Positions 31,722 to 39,787 of a stretch of 64,000 nt of DNA are shown piece by piece (within the stretch, counting starts at the first letter, position 1; each line of letters starts with the position of its first letter). Source of the stretch: Arthrobacter sp. TMP15. Its GTDB lineage: Bacteria > Actinomycetota > Actinomycetes > Actinomycetales > Micrococcaceae. The stretch is from positions 2,418,001-2,482,000 of the forward strand of contig NZ_CP154262.1 in NCBI RefSeq assembly GCF_039529835.1, read 5' to 3'. Made by a program: the position numbers and the translations under genes. Under the pieces are notes generated by a model. The model was given only the letters and a program-made list of their open reading frames with translations, did no database searches and was not told the origin of the DNA.

Positions 31722-32053
31722 GAGCGCCATTCTATGGCTGAAGTAGCGACAGAGGCCACCATTAAACTTTGTTCCCCTGCCGCGCTTCATAAAGTTGACA
31801 CAAGCCAGTAGGCCACGCGCAGGGTTCAACGGAGAGGACCCAACGCGGAGTGGAGGAAACTTTTATGGTGGCTTTTCTGCACCTAAACCTGTGTCTTCAC
31901 AGGGAAGAGCGGGAGATTTAGTGTGATACACAACTCAAAACCGGCAAAAGCTGAGACTTCGATTTCACACGGAACCAAAAAGGCCGTATAGTTTCATGTC
32001 GTTGCGAGGAACACGATGGACACAAACCGAAGTGCTTCTACGCGGTGAAAGTT
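31722..32053. other. Intergenic region between ilvD and the tRNA-Lys genes
   Basis: 332 bp that must hold the ilvD promoter (minus) and the tRNA promoter (plus, 31964-31992). It also has an 18-codon plus-strand frame at 31865-31921 (MVAFLHLNLCLHREEREI) with GGAGG 8 nt upstream, and a small hairpin CCTGTG-TCTT-CACAGG inside it. No larger gene is present. Confidence 0.6.
31964..31992 (+). promoter_or_regulatory. Promoter of the tRNA-Lys unit
   Basis: TTCACA (31964-31969), 17 bp, TATAGT (31987-31992): near-consensus sigma-70-type elements with the ideal spacing, 61 bp before the mature 5' end of the first tRNA. Confidence 0.65.
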
Positions 32054-32126
32054 GCACCCCTAGCTCAATTGGCAGAGCAATTGACTCTTAATCAATGGGT
32101 TTCCGGTTCAAGTCCGGAGGGGTGCA
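32054..32126 (+). tRNA. tRNA-Lys(CTT), first copy
   Basis: 73 nt cloverleaf: acceptor GCACCCC/GGGGTGC, D stem GCTC/GAGC, anticodon stem ATTGA/TCAAT with loop CTCTTAA (anticodon CTT, reads AAG), T stem TCCGG/CCGGA with loop TTCAAGT, discriminator A. CCA is not encoded. All stems pair perfectly. Own promoter upstream and terminator downstream. Confidence 0.97.
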
Positions 32127-32135
32127 CTGGTATTG

Positions 32136-32177
32136 CCGCTCCAGCGCTGGTAACAACCGGTGTTGGTGCGGTTTTTT
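32136..32177 (+). terminator. Terminator after first tRNA-Lys
   Basis: CCGCTCCAGCGCTGGT pairs, with G-T pairs and mismatches, with ACCGGTGTTGGTGCGG, followed by TTTTTT. Related in sequence to the terminator after the second copy. Confidence 0.75.
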
Positions 32178-32207
32178 ACTGCAAAGAGAAATACATAAGA
32201 ATAGTCT

Positions 32208-32280
32208 GCACCCCTAGCTCAATTGGCAGAGCAATTGACTCTTAATCAATGGGTTTCCGGTTCAAGTCCGGAGGGGTGCA
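32208..32280 (+). tRNA. tRNA-Lys(CTT), second copy, adjacent to the prophage
   Basis: Identical over all 73 nt to the copy at 32054-32126. No strong promoter is visible in the 30 bp between the preceding terminator and this gene. The phage integrase gene lies 119 bp downstream, so the 3' part of this gene is the likely attachment core. Confidence 0.96.
32208..32280. other. Candidate attL within the second tRNA-Lys
   Basis: Tyrosine integrases commonly use the 3' half of a tRNA, and the integrase gene here points toward this tRNA end. The core would lie somewhere in the tRNA 3' portion; the matching attR must lie beyond 64000, so the core length cannot be defined from this window. Confidence 0.55.
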
Positions 32281-32286
32281 CAGGGT

Positions 32287-32333
32287 AAAACCGCTCCAAC
32301 ACTGGCAAGCGCCGGGGTTGGAGCGGTTTTTTT
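32287..32333 (+). terminator. Terminator after second tRNA-Lys
   Basis: AAAACCGCTCCAAC and GTTGGAGCGGTTTT are perfect 14-nt arms around a 16-nt loop, followed by more T residues. Strong intrinsic terminator, possibly bidirectional, so it could also end the integrase transcript coming from the right. Confidence 0.85.
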
Positions 32334-32356
32334 ATTTAACGCTTAATGCTCCAGGT

Positions 32357-32378
32357 CCACGCTTATTCCACGCTTATT
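32357..32378. repeat. Tandem 11-bp repeat beside the integrase gene
   Basis: CCACGCTTATT occurs twice in direct succession (32357-32367 and 32368-32378), with a similar AACGCTTAATG about 20 bp upstream. Short direct repeats next to an att core are typical arm-type binding sites for tyrosine integrases; the assignment is inference. Confidence 0.45.
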
Positions 32379-32398
32379 CCGTGACTTCTGGTGAAAAA

Positions 32399-33532
32399 TC
32401 AGGCCTTCGCGGGTCGTTTCGTGACCCACTTGTCCAGCGTCGAGCTCGCGTCCGGGGCCAATTTATCCCTAGCGATGTAGTGCTTCTTGGTCACGGCGTC
32501 CGAGCTGTGGCCCAGCTGCAGCGAGGCAGCCACGGAGCCGGACTCGCGCTCGATGAGTGTGGCCACTGCCTTCCGGAAGCTTCGCGGCTGGACGTAGGCC
32601 CACTTCTCCCCACGCGCGTCACGCCACTGTCGGCGGAAGTTAGACGGCTCCATGAGGTCACCAGACCGGCTGGCGAAGACCAGGTCAGACTTCGCCGACA
32701 GCCGCCGGCGCCGGAGTACCTTGGTGCCAAAGTACGGCAGCGTGAGAATGCGCTCGCCGGACTCCGACTTGGGATAGTCCTGCCGGTGCAGACCCTTGAC
32801 TGAGTCGCGCTTCACCGTGCCCGTGACCTCGATGGTGTTGGCGTTGAAGTCAATGTCACTGAACCGCAGCGCCAGCAACTCCCCCGGCCGCAGCCCGGTG
32901 GCCAGGAAGACATCCACCGAGTCCCGCACCTGGTCACGCCCGGGACGTTCTTTGGCCCACCGTTCGATGTCAGCCCGCAGAGCCTGAACCTCGTCAACAC
33001 TCAGCGCGGTGACTTTCTTCTTCTCTTGGGCGACCATCAGCACCTCCCCCACCGGGTTGACCGTGATGGCGTCATGCCTGACGGCCATGCCAAACATCAG
33101 GGACAGCACCGTGCGCGTCATGCGGGCAGTCGTAGGGGTCTTTGCCTGCAGCGCTCGCAGGAAGGCTTCTAGGCGGCCTGTGGTGGCTTCGTGGATTGCG
33201 AGGTCTCCCAGGGCGGGGACGATGTGCTTGTCTACTTTGTCCTGGTACTGGTCGGCGGTGGCTGTGGACTGGCTCAGCGTGCGGAGCCACAGCAGGGCCA
33301 GCTGGGCGATGGTGGTGTGCCTGGTGATGTCCTCTCCGCCAACGCGGCCGCGGTTCTTCAGCTTCTCTTGGAGTCGGAGTTTTGCTTTGCCCTGGGCCGG
33401 GGCTGAGGCGGTGACTTGCCTGGTCTCGCCGTCCGTGTCCCGGTAGCGGCACTGCGCTTGCCAGCTGTTGCCGACTCTGACCACGTTGATGTCGCCGTGA
33501 GCCCCGATGGGGAGTTTTGGCCTGCCTCGCAT
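32399..33532 (-). CDS. int: Phage tyrosine integrase
   Basis: 377 residues. N-terminal AP2-like arm-binding region (GNSWQAQCRYRDTDGETRQV), core-binding SAM-like domain (about 75-165), catalytic domain from about 175. Catalytic residues: Arg in ATGLRPGELLALR (about 213), Lys in YPKSESGERIL, Arg of the third motif in PRSFRKAVATLIE, His in LQLGHSS and Tyr in KKHY (about 351). The third motif is RSFR where HxxR is usual. Catalyses integration and excision at tRNA-Lys. Reads toward the tRNA, the common arrangement. Confidence 0.96.
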   Translation of the reverse strand: MRGRPKLPIGAHGDINVVRVGNSWQAQCRYRDTDGETRQVTASAPAQGKAKLRLQEKLKNRGRVGGEDITRHTTIAQLALLWLRTLSQSTATADQYQDKVDKHIVPALGDLAIHEATTGRLEAFLRALQAKTPTTARMTRTVLSLMFGMAVRHDAITVNPVGEVLMVAQEKKKVTALSVDEVQALRADIERWAKERPGRDQVRDSVDVFLATGLRPGELLALRFSDIDFNANTIEVTGTVKRDSVKGLHRQDYPKSESGERILTLPYFGTKVLRRRRLSAKSDLVFASRSGDLMEPSNFRRQWRDARGEKWAYVQPRSFRKAVATLIERESGSVAASLQLGHSSDAVTKKHYIARDKLAPDASSTLDKWVTKRPAKA

Positions 33533-33562
33533 GGCATGTCCTGTCTGATCAACCCGGAAGGG

Positions 33563-33970
33563 TTAGCGTGTTTGGTGCTCGACAAGAGACAGCTGTGCTG
33601 CTTCTTGGGGCGTGAGTGTTTGGATTCTGTCGGTGACGACTTCAGGGGTGACCCAGAGATCTTCGGCCAGCTCATCAATGGAGGCGGCCCAGGCAGCGTG
33701 TGTGCAGAGTGCTTCTATGGGGATGAGGCGTCGCGCGGTTTCGGCGCGGACCTCGTATTCAATCCTCGGCGCTTGGCAGCCGGCATGCCCCAGCTCCATG
33801 TGGACGAGCTCGTGCACCAGTGTGCACCGCCGCTCGTCTTGCTGGAGTCTGCTATCCAACCAGATTACTCGCAGACCGTCTGTGCGCCCAGGGGCACCGT
33901 CGGGCATGCGAACAAAGCTGATGTGTATGTGTGTAAGCCGCCGAAGCGCTCCCCAAGGATCGAACATCAT
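33563..33970 (-). CDS. ImmA/IrrE-family metallopeptidase
   Basis: 135 residues with the zinc-protease motif HELVHMELGH (about residues 52-61). ImmA-type proteins cleave phage or ICE repressors to start induction; here it lies in the lysogeny operon with repressor and integrase, so cleavage of the repressor encoded two genes upstream is the likely role. ATG pair at 33970/33967; the exact start is open. Confidence 0.9.
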   Translation of the reverse strand: MMFDPWGALRRLTHIHISFVRMPDGAPGRTDGLRVIWLDSRLQQDERRCTLVHELVHMELGHAGCQAPRIEYEVRAETARRLIPIEALCTHAAWAASIDELAEDLWVTPEVVTDRIQTLTPQEAAQLSLVEHQTR

Positions 33971-34052
33971 TCAGACACTAGACCTAGGTTCTGACAAACT
34001 ACGGGAACATAGATACTAAAACTACACAGGGCGGTTTATGACACGGCTGTGC

Positions 34053-34946
34053 TTAGCCGTTCGCCAGGGTGAGAAGGTCGCGGAAGTCTTTCTCCGTGAT
34101 GATCTTTATGTCCTGGCCGGCGGCTATGTAGGTGCGGGCTTTCGCTTCTTTGCCCGTCCCGGTGGTTGCTGCCACCAGGTGTGTGGTCTTCTTCGTGACG
34201 CCGTTGCCACAGCTGGCACCATGCTTAGCGACGGCGGCCATGGCGTCGTCGCGCTCCATGGTCTCCATGTTTCCGGTGAAGACGAAGACCTGCCCGTACA
34301 GCGGGTTGGTTTCGTCGGCGTCCGCTGCTGCTTGTGGCAGGTCTGACAGCTTCTTGGACGTCCATTCCTTCGGCTGGCTTCGGCCCGAAGCCTTGGTAGT
34401 GGCAGCAGCGGACCAGAGGCCCTCCATGGTGTCCTGCCCAAAAAGTCGGGCCATTTGAAGTACAACGCCGGCGCATGCCATCGCATCAGCAGCAGCATTG
34501 TGGTGGTCGGTGAGGGATACGCCGAGTGAGCCGGCCACTGTGGGCAGCTTGTAGTCGATCAGTTGCATGCGTCCCTGGGCAAGCTGCAATGAGCACAGGA
34601 ATTCAGGGGTCGGGACTGCAAGACCATGGATGGCGGTTGTGGCTTCGAAGACGCTCTGATCAAAGGAGGAATTGTGAGCAACCAGGGGCGTGCCGTCGAT
34701 GAAGGCCATGACGGGCAGTAGGAGTTGGTCCCATGTCGGCGCACCTGCGACCTGCTGGGCAGTGATGCCGTGGACCCTCACGTTGTGCGGGGCAAACTCT
34801 GCATGTTCTGCATGTGGCCGGATCAGGCTACGAGCAGTCCCGATGATCTTGCCGTCCACAACCCGAGCCAGTCCAACGGAGCATGCCGAGGCCCGGCGGC
34901 CGTTGGCCGTCTCGAAGTCGATCGCGGTGAAAGTCAGTCCCGTCAT
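34053..34946 (-). CDS. DnaQ-like 3'-5' exonuclease fused to a BRCT domain
   Basis: 297 residues. DEDDh nuclease: Exo I FTAIDFETANG (Asp10, Glu12), Exo II LVAHNSSFDQSVFE near 95-108, Exo III HHNAAADAMACAG near 148-160. After a linker, a C-terminal BRCT domain (about 215-294) begins GQVFVFTGNMETMERDDAMAA and continues through KKTTHLVAATTGTGKEAKAR, as in NAD-dependent ligases and DnaQ-BRCT exonucleases. Its start overlaps the repressor stop as ATGA, so it is expected to be made in the lysogen. It could process host or invading DNA; its phage role is unknown. Confidence 0.88.
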   Translation of the reverse strand: MTGLTFTAIDFETANGRRASACSVGLARVVDGKIIGTARSLIRPHAEHAEFAPHNVRVHGITAQQVAGAPTWDQLLLPVMAFIDGTPLVAHNSSFDQSVFEATTAIHGLAVPTPEFLCSLQLAQGRMQLIDYKLPTVAGSLGVSLTDHHNAAADAMACAGVVLQMARLFGQDTMEGLWSAAATTKASGRSQPKEWTSKKLSDLPQAAADADETNPLYGQVFVFTGNMETMERDDAMAAVAKHGASCGNGVTKKTTHLVAATTGTGKEAKARTYIAAGQDIKIITEKDFRDLLTLANG

Positions 34947-35545
34947 TGGTCCCCCTCAATATCCTGCGACTCTTCGCCGCGTTTTTGCCAACGCTCGTCG
35001 TCCTCGGCGCCCAGGTTGCGGGAGCCGTCGGCGGCGAGTTCGAAGTAGTTGGCCGGCAACGGAATGTTACCGGCGCTGTCTGCATCTGGGTGGGCGTGCG
35101 GATCCACATAAGGGACCTTCACAGCCTTGGGGTTGGCAGGGCTTTCCCCTGCCTGGTTCATATGGGTGGGATGCTGTTCGACATTGCCCACCACCTCCTT
35201 GTTCATGTCAACGAGGACCCGCAGCATGTCGATCGCGGCCTTCCGTGCTTTCGCGGGAAGGTTATCGACACCTGGTGGTAGTTCCTCTGCAAAGGGAGGA
35301 CCGGGGACGGGTTGTCCCGCGGCCATGAATGCGACCTCGTCCTTGACGCCGGCCAGCCACGCAATCGCACGGATGGTCTCATCCGTTGGAGTGGACTTGT
35401 AGGTACCGCTCCGAATCTGGCCAAGCGTTGTATAGACAACCTTGTGGCCATGCGCCTTGGCGATGCTGCCAAGTTGGCGCACTGAGGTCTGATGCTTGGC
35501 CACGGCCAGGTCAACCAGCTCTCGTAGGCTTTGAGGTTCATTCAC
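34943..35545 (-). CDS. Probable phage immunity repressor (HTH)
   Basis: 200 residues. N-terminal region SLRELVDLAVAKHQTSVRQL then VVYTTLGQIRSGTYKSTPTD fits an XRE-like DNA-binding domain; the middle has LPPGVDNLPAKARKAAIDML typical of actinophage repressors; the C-terminal third is charged and probably disordered. First gene of the leftward lysogeny operon (repressor, DnaQ-BRCT, ImmA, integrase). Divergent from a Cro-like gene across the operator region 35600-35697, which supports the repressor call. Confidence 0.82.
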   Translation of the reverse strand: MNEPQSLRELVDLAVAKHQTSVRQLGSIAKAHGHKVVYTTLGQIRSGTYKSTPTDETIRAIAWLAGVKDEVAFMAAGQPVPGPPFAEELPPGVDNLPAKARKAAIDMLRVLVDMNKEVVGNVEQHPTHMNQAGESPANPKAVKVPYVDPHAHPDADSAGNIPLPANYFELAADGSRNLGAEDDERWQKRGEESQDIEGDQ

Positions 35546-35599
35546 GACGCCGACTCTTCCCTTTGCAACGACACTTGAGGAAGTGCCGAAAATGTTTTG

Positions 35600-35697
35600 T
35601 TGACAAGTAACTACCCCATCTTTGCAGAACCCGCGCGGGTTTCCTCGCTAGTCGGGTTGACAAGCTAGTGATAAACAATGCATGATGTACTTGTCAA
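35600..35697. promoter_or_regulatory. Lysogeny switch region with three TTGACAAG sites
   Basis: TTGACAAG lies at 35600-35607 and 35657-35664 (plus) and as its complement at 35690-35697. The last two form an inverted pair 25 bp apart. Each contains TTGACA, a -35 hexamer, so repressor binding and promoter recognition would coincide. A 12-bp palindrome ACCCGCGCGGGT (35629-35640) sits between the first two. Sites inferred from repetition and position. Confidence 0.6.
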
Positions 35698-35771
35698 AGC
35701 GAAACAAGAAGGGAATACTGATCATGCGACATACCCGCCGCACACTTTCAATCGTTCGTAAGGAGACCTGG

Positions 35772-36050
35772 ATGAAGGTCAAGGACCCTGCTGCATTGCG
35801 GCGGAAGAGGTTGAATCGCAAGTATTCCCAGCGCGACTTGGCGTTCCTCGTCAAGCGCTCGCAGAACGCCATTCACCTAATCGAAACGGGCGGCATGAAG
35901 ACGCTCAGCGAAGACTTGGCGCTGCTGATCGCGGCGCGCCTAGATGTTGACTGGGAGGACTACTTCACCCTCGAGGAGCATGAAGTCATGCCCAAAGTGA
36001 TAAGTAATTCACACACCATTGAGCACCACGAGAGCAAGGTGGCGTCATGA
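35772..36050 (+). CDS. Cro/XRE-type helix-turn-helix protein
   Basis: 92 residues from ATG 35772 (MKVKDPAALRRKRLNRKYSQ), with AAGGAG 6 nt upstream. HTH in RKYSQRDLAFLVKRSQNAIH, then LIETGGMKTLSEDLALLIAA and RLDVDWEDYF, a classical XRE/Cro domain. First gene of the rightward early operon; probably controls the switch as Cro or an activator. Overlaps the next gene as ATGA. Confidence 0.88.
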   Translation: MKVKDPAALRRKRLNRKYSQRDLAFLVKRSQNAIHLIETGGMKTLSEDLALLIAARLDVDWEDYFTLEEHEVMPKVISNSHTIEHHESKVAS

Positions 36051-36673
36051 GCCCATGGACACGTACAGCCGACGGAGGAGACAACTGGTTCCCATCCCCG
36101 TTGCGCTCGCAGGAGCAGGGCGTGTTGCTGGCGGAGGTACGCCGTCGCGATGGCGATGCCTGCCGGGTATGTTGCGTGGTGGTGTCACCCGAGGGGCCCA
36201 GGTCCCGCTATTCACTGAACTATCGCATCCTCAACCCCGGCACCACGCTTACAGTCGCCGGCGTCGTGGTTGTTTGCCGCCAGCACATGACAACCGGCGA
36301 GGTCCAGCCCGCCCCGGAGCGCCCGTTCCGGGCCAACCTCACCTCGGCCCAGCGCCGCGCGGCCAAGGCTGCGGCCGCCGTCGAGCGTGAAAAGGAACTT
36401 GCCGCCGAGGCAGCCGACATCTACGACAGCCACCAAAACGTGGCCGTCCCCTTGAACCAGATCAACATGCTGGTTGATGTCTGTGTCAAGAACGAGCTCG
36501 ACGGTTACCCGGTCCCGGGTAGCGGCGATCCAGTGGTAACCCTGCAGGAAGCGATCCACTGCGGCGCAGTGACCGTCACCAAGGGCCTGCCCGCCGCCGT
36601 TGAATTCCGCCGCAAACACCCCGGGGTGCTGCAGTGCAGCGGGGACAACGTCGATGCCCGGTCTGCGTCGTGA
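36047..36673 (+). CDS. HNH-like zinc-ribbon protein, apparently catalytically degenerate
   Basis: 208 residues. RRRDGDACRVCCVVVSPEGP and VVVVCRQHMTTGE align with the HNH module of the larger protein at 42766-43926 (RLRDGDACRYCGMVV, SCTGCNAGRG), but the DHRVP segment of that protein is replaced by NYRILNPG, so the catalytic His is missing. The C-terminal part (from about residue 100) is helical and unrecognised. Second gene of the early operon. A DNA-binding or structural role is more likely than cleavage. Confidence 0.55.
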   Translation: MSPWTRTADGGDNWFPSPLRSQEQGVLLAEVRRRDGDACRVCCVVVSPEGPRSRYSLNYRILNPGTTLTVAGVVVVCRQHMTTGEVQPAPERPFRANLTSAQRRAAKAAAAVEREKELAAEAADIYDSHQNVAVPLNQINMLVDVCVKNELDGYPVPGSGDPVVTLQEAIHCGAVTVTKGLPAAVEFRRKHPGVLQCSGDNVDARSAS

Positions 36674-36864
36674 CGGTCATGGCTGAGGCTCCGGTCCGGT
36701 ATATGACGCCGGTGGATCTGGCGGAGGTTTTGCAGATCCCAGTGGTCACGTTAGCCAACTGGAGGTCAGCGAAGAAGGGGCCCAGGTTCTTGCGCCTGGG
36801 CGGCCTGGTCCGGTATGACCCGGCGGATGTCGCTGTCTGGTTGGAAGAGCAGCGGGCCGACTAG
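36670..36864 (+). CDS. Excisionase-like helix-turn-helix protein
   Basis: About 64 residues: MTPVDLAEVLQIPVVTLANW and GPRFLRLGGLVRYDPADVAV are the two halves of the MerR/Xis (HTH_17) winged helix. GTG 36670 overlaps the previous stop as GTGA; an ATG at 36679 is an alternative. Likely helps excision with the integrase, or is a small early regulator. Confidence 0.8.
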   Translation: MTVMAEAPVRYMTPVDLAEVLQIPVVTLANWRSAKKGPRFLRLGGLVRYDPADVAVWLEEQRAD

Positions 36865-36911: not shown

Positions 36912-37451
36912 GTGAGTGATTCCCCTAAGCCCAGCGCGCCCGCTGGCAAGTCCGCAGAGCTGCCGACGTTCCCGTCGCGGATGTTCTTCGACGCGCTGGA
37001 CTACCCCCAGGGCCGCGATCGCACCAACGTTGAAATCGCCCGCGGCAAAAGCGTGGCCCAGTTGCACAGGGACAAGGACCGTCTGGCCGTAGCGATCAGT
37101 CATCTGCGGGCTGCTGATGAAGTCGGCAAGGTCCAGGCGTCTTTTGAGGTGTTGGTAGCTTGGGCGGACGCTTTCCAGAAGTCCGTTCATGCGCTGGCCC
37201 GGCTGGCCCGAAACGCCGAGACCCGGTTCGACGATGCCAACCCCGTGGTCGAGGACCCGGCGCCGGACACGGCGGCAGTCACACCTGATGAGGCTTTGGC
37301 TGCGGAGCTTCAACGGCTGGCCCACGGCCCGCTGGTGGTCTCGACAGTTAACGTCGGGCCCGACGGGACGCGCCATCACCCGCGGACCATGGCTGAGGCC
37401 ATGCAGATCCGGAACGCCAAGCTAAGCGAGATAGCCGACGGTCGGGCATGA
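36912..37451 (+). CDS. Early prophage protein of unknown function
   Basis: 179 residues, GTG start with AAGGA 8 nt upstream. Mostly helical, acidic C-terminal half; VGPDGTRHHPRTMAEAMQIR near the end. No recognised domain. Next gene overlaps as ATGA. Confidence 0.75.
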   Translation: MSDSPKPSAPAGKSAELPTFPSRMFFDALDYPQGRDRTNVEIARGKSVAQLHRDKDRLAVAISHLRAADEVGKVQASFEVLVAWADAFQKSVHALARLARNAETRFDDANPVVEDPAPDTAAVTPDEALAAELQRLAHGPLVVSTVNVGPDGTRHHPRTMAEAMQIRNAKLSEIADGRA

Positions 37452-37714: not shown

Positions 37715-37914
37715 TGGGCGAGGTTGTGCGTCCGTCGGTGCGGGTGGCCGCAAACCGCCGTCGTGCTTTCCTGTGGCTGCCGGTACTGCTGACCGGCGCC
37801 CTGGTCTCTGTGGCTGGTGGGTCAATGATCACAGTTTTCAATTCATTGGACGCCGCCGGCCTGGTACTGCTGCTGGCCGGGTTGTTCGGATTCATACGTG
37901 AGGTGGAGAAGTGA
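37714..37914 (+). CDS. Small membrane protein with two hydrophobic segments
   Basis: 66 residues. RRRAFLWLPVLLTGALVSVA and LDAAGLVLLLAGLFGFI form two transmembrane helices with a short basic N-terminus. Starts at the ATG of TGATG with the previous stop. Role unknown; small membrane proteins in this position could affect superinfection or the host envelope. Confidence 0.75.
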   Translation: MGEVVRPSVRVAANRRRAFLWLPVLLTGALVSVAGGSMITVFNSLDAAGLVLLLAGLFGFIREVEK

Positions 37915-38363
37915 TGCCGGAGACAGTGAATGATCAGGCCCCAGCATTTGTAATCCCTAGGGGAACAGATGAGTTGGCGTGGAAGATGGCAGCCGCCTGG
38001 GCGGATGTGCCGGTGGCGTTGCTGTTAGCTGATACGGCCTCTGTGAAGTCAACGCATTACATTGCGGCGTTGCGGGTCTGCAAGTCACTGGACCTGTGGC
38101 TGGAACGTCATGACGCGGAAGCTGCTCAGCGTGCCGAGGAAGAGGCGGCTACCGGCAGTCCTTTGGCGGATGAGATTTCACAGCTCGGGGCTGAGAGCTT
38201 CATAAGAATCATGATGCTCGCGGAAGAGTTCGCGTCCCTGACTACACAGAGCCGTGACCGTGGGGATGCCGTGAGGGCGAGTAAGTATTCAGGTTTTGAA
38301 TCGGCTCTGCTGCAGGTAGCGGCTGGGCTTCAAGTAGATAACGACATAGAGGTGGGGAAGTAA
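37914..38363 (+). CDS. Early prophage protein of unknown function
   Basis: 149 residues, acidic, helical. ATG 37914 with GGAG 5 nt upstream chosen over GTG 37911. AWADVPVALLLADTASVKST and a coiled, Glu-rich centre; no known domain. Shares one base with the next start (TAATG). Confidence 0.75.
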   Translation: MPETVNDQAPAFVIPRGTDELAWKMAAAWADVPVALLLADTASVKSTHYIAALRVCKSLDLWLERHDAEAAQRAEEEAATGSPLADEISQLGAESFIRIMMLAEEFASLTTQSRDRGDAVRASKYSGFESALLQVAAGLQVDNDIEVGK

Positions 38364-39787
38364 TGGCTACACGTTTTGAAGAGATAGCGATAGGTCAGGT
38401 TCGGCCAAATAAGGCGAACATTCGTGAGGACTTGGGGGACTTGGACCGGTTGACGGAAGAGATCCGCACTCTTGGTGTTGTCTCTCCGCTGATTGTTTAC
38501 CCACACCCGGAGCTTGAGGGTGATTACCTGGTGAAGGATGGTCACCGTCGCCGTCAGGCGGCTGTGAACGCTGACAAGTCTTTCCTGCCCTGCATCGTTG
38601 TTGATGCACCAGTGCGTGGGGAGATGGACGATGTTGAGGCGATGCTGACCACCGGCCGTAACCACCGTGCCCTGACCGCGTTAGAGGAAGCTAAGGGTTT
38701 CCAGCGTCTTCTGGATTTGGGTTTGAATGAGTCCACTATTGGGAAGAAGTTCAAGAAGCCGAAGTCGGAGATCATCGCTAAGGCTCGGGTAAAGAGCTCA
38801 CCGGAGGCTGTGCAGCAGGCGTATGGGTTTGGGCGTTTGGACTTGGAGGGTGTGAAGAAACTCCAGGAGCTTGAGGACGCTGGCCAGCCGGGCTTGTATG
38901 CCCGGGTGGTGGAGACCATTGGTAATGCGGATAAGCGCTACACGCTGCACCTGGAGCGGACGATTGCCCGTGCAGAGCAGGAGCATGCACAGGCTGAGGT
39001 TCAGCAGCTCATGGATGCTTTGGAGGCCCCGCAAGCCCCGCAGGACGTTACCTACTCTAATAAGTGGGATCACGTCCCTGACGTCGAGGGCGAAGAGCTC
39101 AACGACGAGGAGCATGTGGCTGCCGGCCACTACTGGACTAACAGCACTTATAACCCTGAACCGAAGTGGTACCGGCCGCTGACCGTGGCCAAGCCTGATC
39201 TTTCAGAGGTGGAGAAGGAAGAGAAGAAGAAGCTCCGCGCTTTGAACGTGGAACTATCTGTCAGCTACCAGGTGCGGCGCCAGTTCATTGCGAACCAGAT
39301 CCTTTCAAAGGACGGGGCCGGTGAAGTAGCCGATAAGGAATTGCTGTTTGACCTTCTGTGGGGGGATATCACCAAGCTCGATGATGAGACCTTGGGTGAC
39401 ATTAGTAGCATTCATTGCCCTGTGCAGGCTAAGGAGTACGGCAAGGAACGCAATGATTGGTTGGCGCGAACGAAGGCAGCTGTACAGAAGCTCTCGTGGA
39501 AGCAGCTGGCACGTGCCGCAGCCTACGCAAATGCCAAGGACACTGACCGGCAGCTGCGGTTCGCAAAGAACTTCGATCGCACCGTTTATGACTGGTCGAA
39601 CCGTCAGCGCTGGCTTGAGCAGGTACAAACCCATTTCGGTCACCGCCTTGACCAGGCAGAACAGGACACGCTGGAGCTGTTCAAGACCAAGGGCGGGTCC
39701 TACTCCAGTAGAGAAATGACTGAGGGTCTGAACCGCCGTGTCGAGGAAGACGTCACCGTCATCAAAGACACTGAGGTAACCCAGTGA
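38363..39787 (+). CDS. ParB/sulfiredoxin-fold nuclease-like protein
   Basis: 474 residues. N-terminal ParB-like domain: IAIGQVRPNKANIREDLGDL, then LVKDGHRRRQAAVNADKSFL, which carries the conserved GHRR box (about residues 59-62); next a helical HTH-like part (NESTIGKKFKKPKSEIIAKA). The rest (170-474) is helical and acidic, unlike chromosomal ParB, which is about 300 residues. No ParA partner is present, so plasmid-type partition is not supported; such phage proteins may act in DNA modification, replication or regulation. Confidence 0.82.
   Translation: MATRFEEIAIGQVRPNKANIREDLGDLDRLTEEIRTLGVVSPLIVYPHPELEGDYLVKDGHRRRQAAVNADKSFLPCIVVDAPVRGEMDDVEAMLTTGRNHRALTALEEAKGFQRLLDLGLNESTIGKKFKKPKSEIIAKARVKSSPEAVQQAYGFGRLDLEGVKKLQELEDAGQPGLYARVVETIGNADKRYTLHLERTIARAEQEHAQAEVQQLMDALEAPQAPQDVTYSNKWDHVPDVEGEELNDEEHVAAGHYWTNSTYNPEPKWYRPLTVAKPDLSEVEKEEKKKLRALNVELSVSYQVRRQFIANQILSKDGAGEVADKELLFDLLWGDITKLDDETLGDISSIHCPVQAKEYGKERNDWLARTKAAVQKLSWKQLARAAAYANAKDTDRQLRFAKNFDRTVYDWSNRQRWLEQVQTHFGHRLDQAEQDTLELFKTKGGSYSSREMTEGLNRRVEEDVTVIKDTEVTQ

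Follow-up and report, generated by a model that had tools for sequence, protein, structure and literature searches.

The 64,000-nt stretch of the Arthrobacter sp. TMP15 genome analyzed here (the window; positions 2,418,001-2,482,000 of NZ_CP154262.1, assembly GCF_039529835.1, from a 3.7-Mb genome) holds a prophage in which a gene for a DnaQ-BRCT exonuclease lies directly behind the immunity repressor gene and overlaps it. The nuclease keeps all of its catalytic residues, and its gene is an exchangeable cargo of a slot downstream of the repressor, cleanly swapped for other genes in a close relative, L146 (compared loci and sequences are cited by L number). The slot holds a wide variety of cargo among relatives of the prophage, and DnaQ genes, with or without the BRCT domain, have been placed beside repressors repeatedly in other phages. 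The prophage genes likeliest to be expressed in a lysogen are those produced along with the repressor, so they reveal what the phage contributes to its host while dormant. Judging from sequence and analogy, we lean slightly toward the DnaQ-BRCT protein being a lysogen-expressed exonuclease that, as exchangeable cargo in a slot like that of cI-rexAB, protects the lysogen and its prophage from competitors. Lysogeny cargo coupled to a repressor is already known as an arrangement, and one DnaQ-BRCT protein already figures among listed defence candidates. What is new is that DnaQ-BRCT genes have repeatedly been placed behind a repressor, and how large a cargo slot follows this family of actinobacterial repressors.

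A nuclease gene in an exchangeable slot

The repressor gene (34943-35545, minus strand, GTG start, 200 aa) matches PHROG 12831 'transcriptional repressor' (1.5e-16) and, at no more than 59% identity over residues 1-118, genes annotated as 'immunity repressor' in Mycobacterium and Gordonia phages; it has no Pfam match, and hence no S24 domain by Pfam. The nuclease gene follows on the same strand (34053-34946, ATG start, 297 aa). The original prediction that the repressor stop and the nuclease start share an ATGA was borne out, both open reading frames (ORFs) lying where it placed them and the ATGA at 34946-34943, with a strong ribosome-binding-like GAGGGGG ahead of it within the final codons of the repressor gene. 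We dropped the idea that this coupling marks a special link between the two genes: the prophage has four more 4-nt overlaps, each between two ORFs of its lytic strand (36047-36050, 37448-37451, 37911-37914, and 39784-39787), and the overlap is therefore ordinary and counts for little as evidence. What counts is which genes are coupled and where they stand, not the overlap itself.

As had been read from the letters alone, the gene encodes a DEDDh nuclease with a BRCT domain. The DnaQ-type exonuclease domain spans about residues 6-166 (Pfam RNase_T, 1.6e-13, 52 bits against a cut-off of 24) and the C-terminal BRCT domain about residues 213-292 (PF00533, 1.6e-09, 38.3 bits against a cut-off of 21.3). 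The ExoI DxE, ExoII D, and ExoIII H-x4-D residues are all kept; in an alignment of 38 sequences D10, E12, H149, and D154 are invariant and D96 is present in at least 90%. The AlphaFold model has two confident domains (mean pLDDT 92.6) joined by a low-confidence linker at 184-194, and the solved folds that it matches best are the PolC exonuclease, Staphylococcus aureus DinG, ExoX, Pol III epsilon, and RNase T. By residues, profile, and fold, the protein is a DnaQ-superfamily DEDDh 3'-5' exonuclease, its activity being predicted. The BRCT half resembles the BRCT domains of RFC1 and LigA by sequence (PDB matches), and these domains bind DNA ends. Near full-length similarity was also found to PRK06195, 'DNA polymerase III subunit epsilon' (NCBIfam NF004844, residues 5-290, 1e-55), and membership in that family was rejected, as the score of 189.4 bits lies below the cut-off of 373; the two are related only.

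No membrane segment is predicted in the window nuclease, whose highest 19-residue hydropathy is 1.36 against a threshold of 1.7. DnaQ nucleases with predicted membrane segments do occur elsewhere, the segment being N-terminal in L089 and L119 and C-terminal in L068 and in the satellite L011, where by our reading of the alignment it takes the place of the BRCT domain. Such membrane segments would suit action near the point of DNA entry.

To describe the slot, we collected relatives of the repressor from 17 other genomes (197 searched, the source genome included; a few of the matches are weak). The slot was examined in 71 loci of the family, 20 on genome contigs and 51 on viral contigs, which became 66 after identical ones were merged; the genome contigs include those of Arthrobacter, Pseudarthrobacter, Sinomonas, Glutamicibacter, Kocuria, and Cellulomonas. 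We defined the slot as the stretch from the repressor stop to ImmA or the integrase, called it empty when the gap was at most 250 nt, and counted as cargo the plus-strand ORFs of at least 100 aa, called mechanically. By these rules 37 loci are occupied, 20 are empty, two have a longer gap without a plus-strand ORF of 100 aa, and seven have no landmark. The 37 occupied slots hold 74 cargo ORFs in 49 families, and the first ORFs alone fall into 26 families. The first cargo ORF begins between -4 and +12 nt from the repressor stop in 19 of the 37, at exactly -4 in eight. In layout, with a gene directly downstream of the repressor, overlapping it and exchangeable among relatives, the arrangement seen in the window is that of repressor-coupled cargo of the known, cI-rexAB-like kind.

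The exchange is clearest in L146, which is 82% identical to the window DNA from 36052 to 35001, through the cro/repressor region and into the repressor, and 78% identical from 33967 to 32410, covering ImmA and the integrase. Between these like flanks, ORFs of 316 and 196 aa stand where the window has dnaQ.

Some of the other cargo matches defence profiles. In L173, a gene pair in the slot matches PD-Lambda-5_A (1.9e-66) and PD-Lambda-5_B (1.7e-103), and in L202 a pair matches PDC-M02A (2.3e-21) and PDC-M02B (1.1e-54). PD-Lambda-5 is an experimentally tested defence system; its A/B pair lies at L173:5149-7471, and L181 holds the same two cargo families. The Pfam and PADLOC scans of cargo used 49 representatives from an approximate count (89 ORFs over the 71 loci, duplicates included), among which HipA-like kinase, PIN, Gp49-like, and HIRAN domains each gave a single Pfam match. 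A methyltransferase is also among the slot cargoes. With 49 cargo families over 37 occupied loci and a match to PD-Lambda-5 among them, the slot is a possible source of new phage-defence systems in Micrococcaceae and other actinobacteria.

Several cargo genes recur. A two-gene cargo is found in L168:5110-6670, L214, L183, L187, and L161, where a first ORF of 316-371 aa (two families) is followed by a second of 183-211 aa (one family of five); neither L168 ORF has a PADLOC match, and the L168 first ORF and the L161 second ORF have no Pfam match. This pair is a candidate for a new lysogeny-expressed system. The most frequent family, with seven of the 89 ORFs (duplicates included), is a first cargo of 343-426 aa in L148, L150, L156, L157, L159, L174, and L179; in L157 and L159 it is followed by a gene of the HipA-like kinase family and then by a third gene. 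The cargo proteins behind the repressors of L060 and L062 begin with MHVFIDDSGD and MLVYVDDSGD, respectively, which we take to be DUF3800-like.

Recurrence behind repressors and origin of the pairing

The original prediction proposed looking for the same pairing in other prophages, and we found it in unrelated temperate phages and in satellites. A tblastn search of the nuclease against phage records matched 56 of them (25 from Staphylococcus, 18 from Streptococcus, and 13 from others). Ten phage or satellite records were opened, and in nine the DnaQ gene follows, on the same strand, one annotated as a repressor, regulator, or DNA-binding protein or one positioned like the repressor or its small partner: IPP44, satellite Javan542, Moraxella phage Mcat9, phi2958PVL, phi12, Javan549, Javan310, and satellites Javan175 and Javan739. 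One extra small gene lies between the repressor-like gene and the DnaQ gene in IPP44, and in Javan310 about 400 nt without annotation separate the DnaQ gene from the gene upstream.

A single-sequence scan of IMG/VR with the window nuclease found no relative. An alignment-based search of the same collection found 139 relatives, the best 80 of which were kept; 78 of these have an intact frame (L073 and L074 were dropped) and form 49 clusters at 70% identity, each judged on one member. The DnaQ gene lies directly behind a repressor in nine clusters and behind a repressor and ImmA in four; another 12 have a repressor within 1.3 kb upstream, four have a convergent one downstream, and 20 have none. 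Labels for helix-turn-helix (HTH) genes, integrases, and ImmA came from home-made profiles of the loci in this analysis, so that all such counts are approximate; Pfam agrees in kind, finding HTH_3 in 15, S24 in 10, and M78 in 10 of 53 distinct upstream proteins. DnaQ is thus placed directly behind a repressor, or behind a repressor with ImmA, in 13 of 49 clusters, and of the other ORFs of at least 150 aa in the stretches examined around these DnaQ genes 4 of 279 lie directly behind an HTH gene (Fisher p 6e-09), the control ORFs being handicapped in that DnaQ already fills the place behind the repressor. A second set of new loci agrees: a co-directional repressor within 1.3 kb accompanies 11 of 20 full-length copies and 6 of 31 exonuclease-only copies (p 0.014); this set derives from 80 loci, of which 14 fell in neither group, and the 66 used were reduced by 6 with a short upstream region and 9 duplicates.

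Two of the viral copies reproduce the layout of the window closely. L066 has the same order throughout, with a cro-like gene, a repressor of the same family, DnaQ-BRCT, ImmA, and integrase, and L068 has repressor, DnaQ-BRCT, and ImmA as in the window with a -4 overlap, its integrase being on the other strand. In L044, another genome of the bacterial family, a weakly matching repressor-like gene, ImmA, DnaQ, and integrase stand in line. In L109, L110, L115, and L125, the DnaQ(-BRCT) gene is convergent with an HTH repressor-like gene rather than behind it. L067 was rejected as an example of a lysogeny module: over the columns compared, its DnaQ does not differ from that of L024, which belongs to a genome of the same genus as the window and falls inside a group of chromosomal copies, and it lies just past an integrase; it is therefore probably host DNA flanking a prophage.

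The pairing of DnaQ with a repressor has probably been made more than once, judging from trees of the nuclease. An approximately unbiased (AU) test and a tree were computed on 36 chosen rows under LG+G4, with the viral-contig rows L066 and L068 assigned as 'actinobacterial phage' and L071 and L094, likewise from viral contigs, as 'Firmicutes phage' by repressor type or G+C content. Three actinobacterial phage copies nest within chromosomal copies of the same bacterial family (support 100/98), and the Firmicutes phage copies fall outside that chromosomal and actinobacterial group. A single clade of actinobacterial and Firmicutes copies is rejected (AU p 0.0002), and at least 11 changes of the repressor-adjacent state are required on a tree of 91 rows; both results underlie our view of multiple origins. 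When the phage copies from actinobacteria were tested by themselves as a single clade, the AU p value was 0.026, which is too weak to rely on.

Function of the nuclease and competing explanations

Defence is probably the role of the nuclease. In the mechanism that we propose, dnaQ would be transcribed together with the repressor gene and its translation coupled to that of the repressor, and the nuclease should hence be present in the dormant lysogen. The BRCT domain would bring the 3'-5' exonuclease to DNA ends or nicks, where it would trim the ends of foreign DNA that enters or replicates, and this trimming would shield the lysogen and its prophage from competitors, as do cI-rexAB in lambda and gp43/gp44 in CarolAnn. 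The idea that exonucleases acting on DNA ends commonly shield lysogens can now be tested directly.

Comparison with known systems supports parts of this picture. Lambda cI-rexA-rexB and CarolAnn 43/44, like the window, have accessory genes directly downstream of the repressor, and in this Gordonia phage gp43 and gp44 have been shown to be expressed along with the repressor and to provide defence (PMC6426606). A RexAB-type system has also been reported in a Pseudomonas putida prophage (PMC12894663). The difference lies in the components: RexAB comprises two genes, including one for a membrane protein, and CarolAnn needs two genes, whereas the window has a single DnaQ-BRCT nuclease. Pfam and PADLOC scans of four window proteins listed no Rex-type match, so that no homology to RexA or RexB was encountered there. 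The PADLOC defence candidate PDC-S48 has the same two domains in the same order as the window nuclease. The whole-protein match (6e-36, for a profile to which PADLOC gives no curated cut-off) covers profile positions 4-196 and 322-406 of 411; taken by halves, the exonuclease matches at 4-173 (8e-25) and the BRCT domain at 322-406 (3.8e-12), which puts a DnaQ-BRCT protein among the defence candidates already listed. PDC-S48 is unmentioned, and hence no test of it was found, among the literature matches listed. A DnaQ-BRCT gene behind a prophage repressor is likewise not described among those matches, which consist of titles and abstract starts with subscription journals and bioRxiv thinly covered, and are weak evidence of absence.

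Broader parallels exist at the level of mobile elements. The diDNases of Actinomycete genomic islands are DEDD-fold DNA nucleases of mobile elements with a suggested immunity role (PMC11706625); they are NrnC-like deoxydinucleases, the word BRCT is absent from the text of that source as far as it was available, and the window protein is likened to them by description only. The loci of genetic variation in P2 and P4 phages hold antiviral systems (PMC9122126). Those hotspots belong to P2-like phages and P4-like satellites of Escherichia coli, whereas the slot in the window is actinobacterial, runs from the repressor to ImmA or the integrase, and often overlaps the repressor stop.

Several observations weigh against a defensive lysogenic role. 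The authors of PDC-S48 named it as a candidate only, and the middle of its profile (about 197-321) has no counterpart in the window protein. Most slot cargo lacks an assigned function, the cargo ORFs are mechanical calls, and any gene expressed in lysogeny could occupy the slot. DnaQ is a rare cargo for this family of repressors, occurring besides the window in one of the 71 loci (L170, on the same contig as L066). The host has two chromosomal relatives of the nuclease, at 42% and 39% identity, and among the 29 best matches in genomes of the bacterial family (L018-L046), a repressor, ImmA, or integrase label lies within about 1.5 kb in two, L024 and L044; hence this type of enzyme is not inherently a phage gene. 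Among the ten opened records the Pasteurella phage Pmp8 is the exception, with its DnaQ gene away from the repressor. The original prediction had named common occurrence in lytic operons as contrary to it, and this was seen in part: no repressor is nearby in the 20 clusters mentioned above (including L128, which has only 110 nt upstream and cannot be judged), and some DnaQ copies apparently adjoin tail genes, set against the 13 clusters directly behind a repressor or a repressor with ImmA. The 20 clusters count against a purely lysogenic role. The idea of a gene serving immunity or host fitness consequently stands in part: the variable slot with its PD-Lambda-5 and PDC-M02 matches and the match of PDC-S48 to both halves of the protein speak for it, and these same 20 clusters speak against it.

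More tentatively, and as a somewhat doubtful extension, DnaQ-BRCT proteins and the membrane-anchored DnaQ variants may be a widespread immunity nuclease expressed in lysogeny. Phages and satellites from three or more phyla, the phages being temperate, would have placed its gene directly behind their repressors independently, and the enzyme would destroy any DNA that enters the lysogen or replicates there with its 3' ends exposed. The actinobacterial slot would then be a hotspot of defence genes coupled to the repressor, with cargo families, dozens in number, yet to be characterised.

The main rival to defence is a dormancy role like that of Hex, which we consider unlikely. The nuclease would trim 3' single-stranded ends and lower the RecA-ssDNA induction signal, so stabilizing lysogeny and protecting the prophage, and would not be anti-phage. 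The likeness of the BRCT half to the end-binding domains of RFC1 and LigA would fit such a role, as would the finding of DnaQ behind S24-type and M78/ImmA-type proteins alike (10 each). The direct precedent is Hex of phage 434, a repressor-coupled gene that prevents RecA-mediated cleavage of the repressor; its frame apparently overlaps the repressor gene, as does that of the window nuclease, and Hex shares its mRNA with the repressor in the lysogen (PMC3564112). However, Hex acts on RecA-stimulated repressor cleavage and is not described as a nuclease in the part of that source drawn on here, while the window gene encodes a predicted nuclease. Other cargoes of the slot, such as the methyltransferase and the HipA-like kinase, have no obvious link to RecA, and the window repressor lacks an S24 domain by Pfam.

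It is rather improbable that the gene is a passively carried moron, a host DnaQ-BRCT repair exonuclease captured onto a lysogen-active promoter that brings a modest DNA-repair benefit and no immunity. The grouping of the window protein with chromosomal copies of the same bacterial family agrees with such a capture, and a match of some kind (E ≤0.001) exists in 393 of 395 family genomes, more distant DnaQ-type and BRCT proteins included. A DEDDh enzyme of related fold, MrfB, repairs DNA damage (PMC10889028). However, the host already carries chromosomal relatives, and the repeated placement directly behind repressors, as seen in the clusters and the AU test, suggests more than passive carriage.

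We give still less credence to a transformation barrier, in which the nuclease would degrade incoming single-stranded DNA and keep the prophage from being cured by recombination. In pneumococci, regulators and genes of the lysogeny region link prophages with transformation (PMC12637031), and an anti-curing role in streptococci is possible. Streptococci account for 18 of the 56 records matched, and the copies fused to predicted membrane segments could sit near DNA entry. The main text of PMC12637031, however, has 0 occurrences of exonuclease, of nuclease at a word start, of BRCT, and of DnaQ; the pairing is seen as well in phages of Staphylococcus and Moraxella and in Actinobacteria, and the window protein has no predicted membrane segment. 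A lytic-phase replication or recombination nuclease that lies on the repressor strand by chance is very improbable: its PHROG 192 label, 'DNA polymerase exonuclease subunit' (6.4e-39), and the 20 clusters away from repressors would fit, but the window gene runs opposite to the lytic strand and overlaps the repressor gene, and near relatives have no dnaQ, holding other genes or nothing in the slot.

Prophage boundaries and control region

The prophage that carries the DnaQ-BRCT gene is integrated in a tRNA-Lys gene and measures 37.2 kb. It is bounded by perfect 25-nt copies of the tRNA-Lys 3' end, at genome position 2450258 (window 32258) and at 2487495, which mark both ends, the right end lying about 5.5 kb beyond the window. 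The tRNA-Lys(CTT) gene itself (32208-32281, plus strand, ARAGORN) provides the left attachment site with its 3' end, the repeat copy being at 32258-32282. It is followed on the minus strand by a tyrosine integrase of 377 aa (32399-33532; Pfam Phage_integrase 1.5e-14; PHROG 1, 3e-48) and an ImmA/IrrE-like metallopeptidase (M78) of 135 aa (33563-33970; Pfam Peptidase_M78 2.1e-07; PHROG 87 metallo-protease 3.4e-19), the latter being the first conserved gene past the cargo slot.

The lytic genes diverge from the strand of integrase, ImmA, DnaQ, and repressor, and they start at a Cro-like HTH gene (35772-36050, plus strand, with a possible start at 35682; Pfam HTH_3 3e-06). Between the divergent repressor and cro-like genes, at 35600-35697, lie three TTGACAAG sites that are candidate operators (35600 and 35657 on the plus strand, 35690 on the minus strand). 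Exact copies of TTGACAAG also occur in the repressor-cro region of relatives, two in L146, two in L147, and none in L066. The 8-mer alone is not significant in the window, where four were found against 2.06 expected and 14 of 100 shuffles reached four. A promoter scan listed no minus-strand site in 32000-36700, with a consensus of the sigma-70 type that says little for an actinobacterium. Among the early genes of the lytic strand is one for a ParB-like protein (38363-39787; PHROG 6218, 3.8e-39), and a similar ORF occupies the same region of L146.

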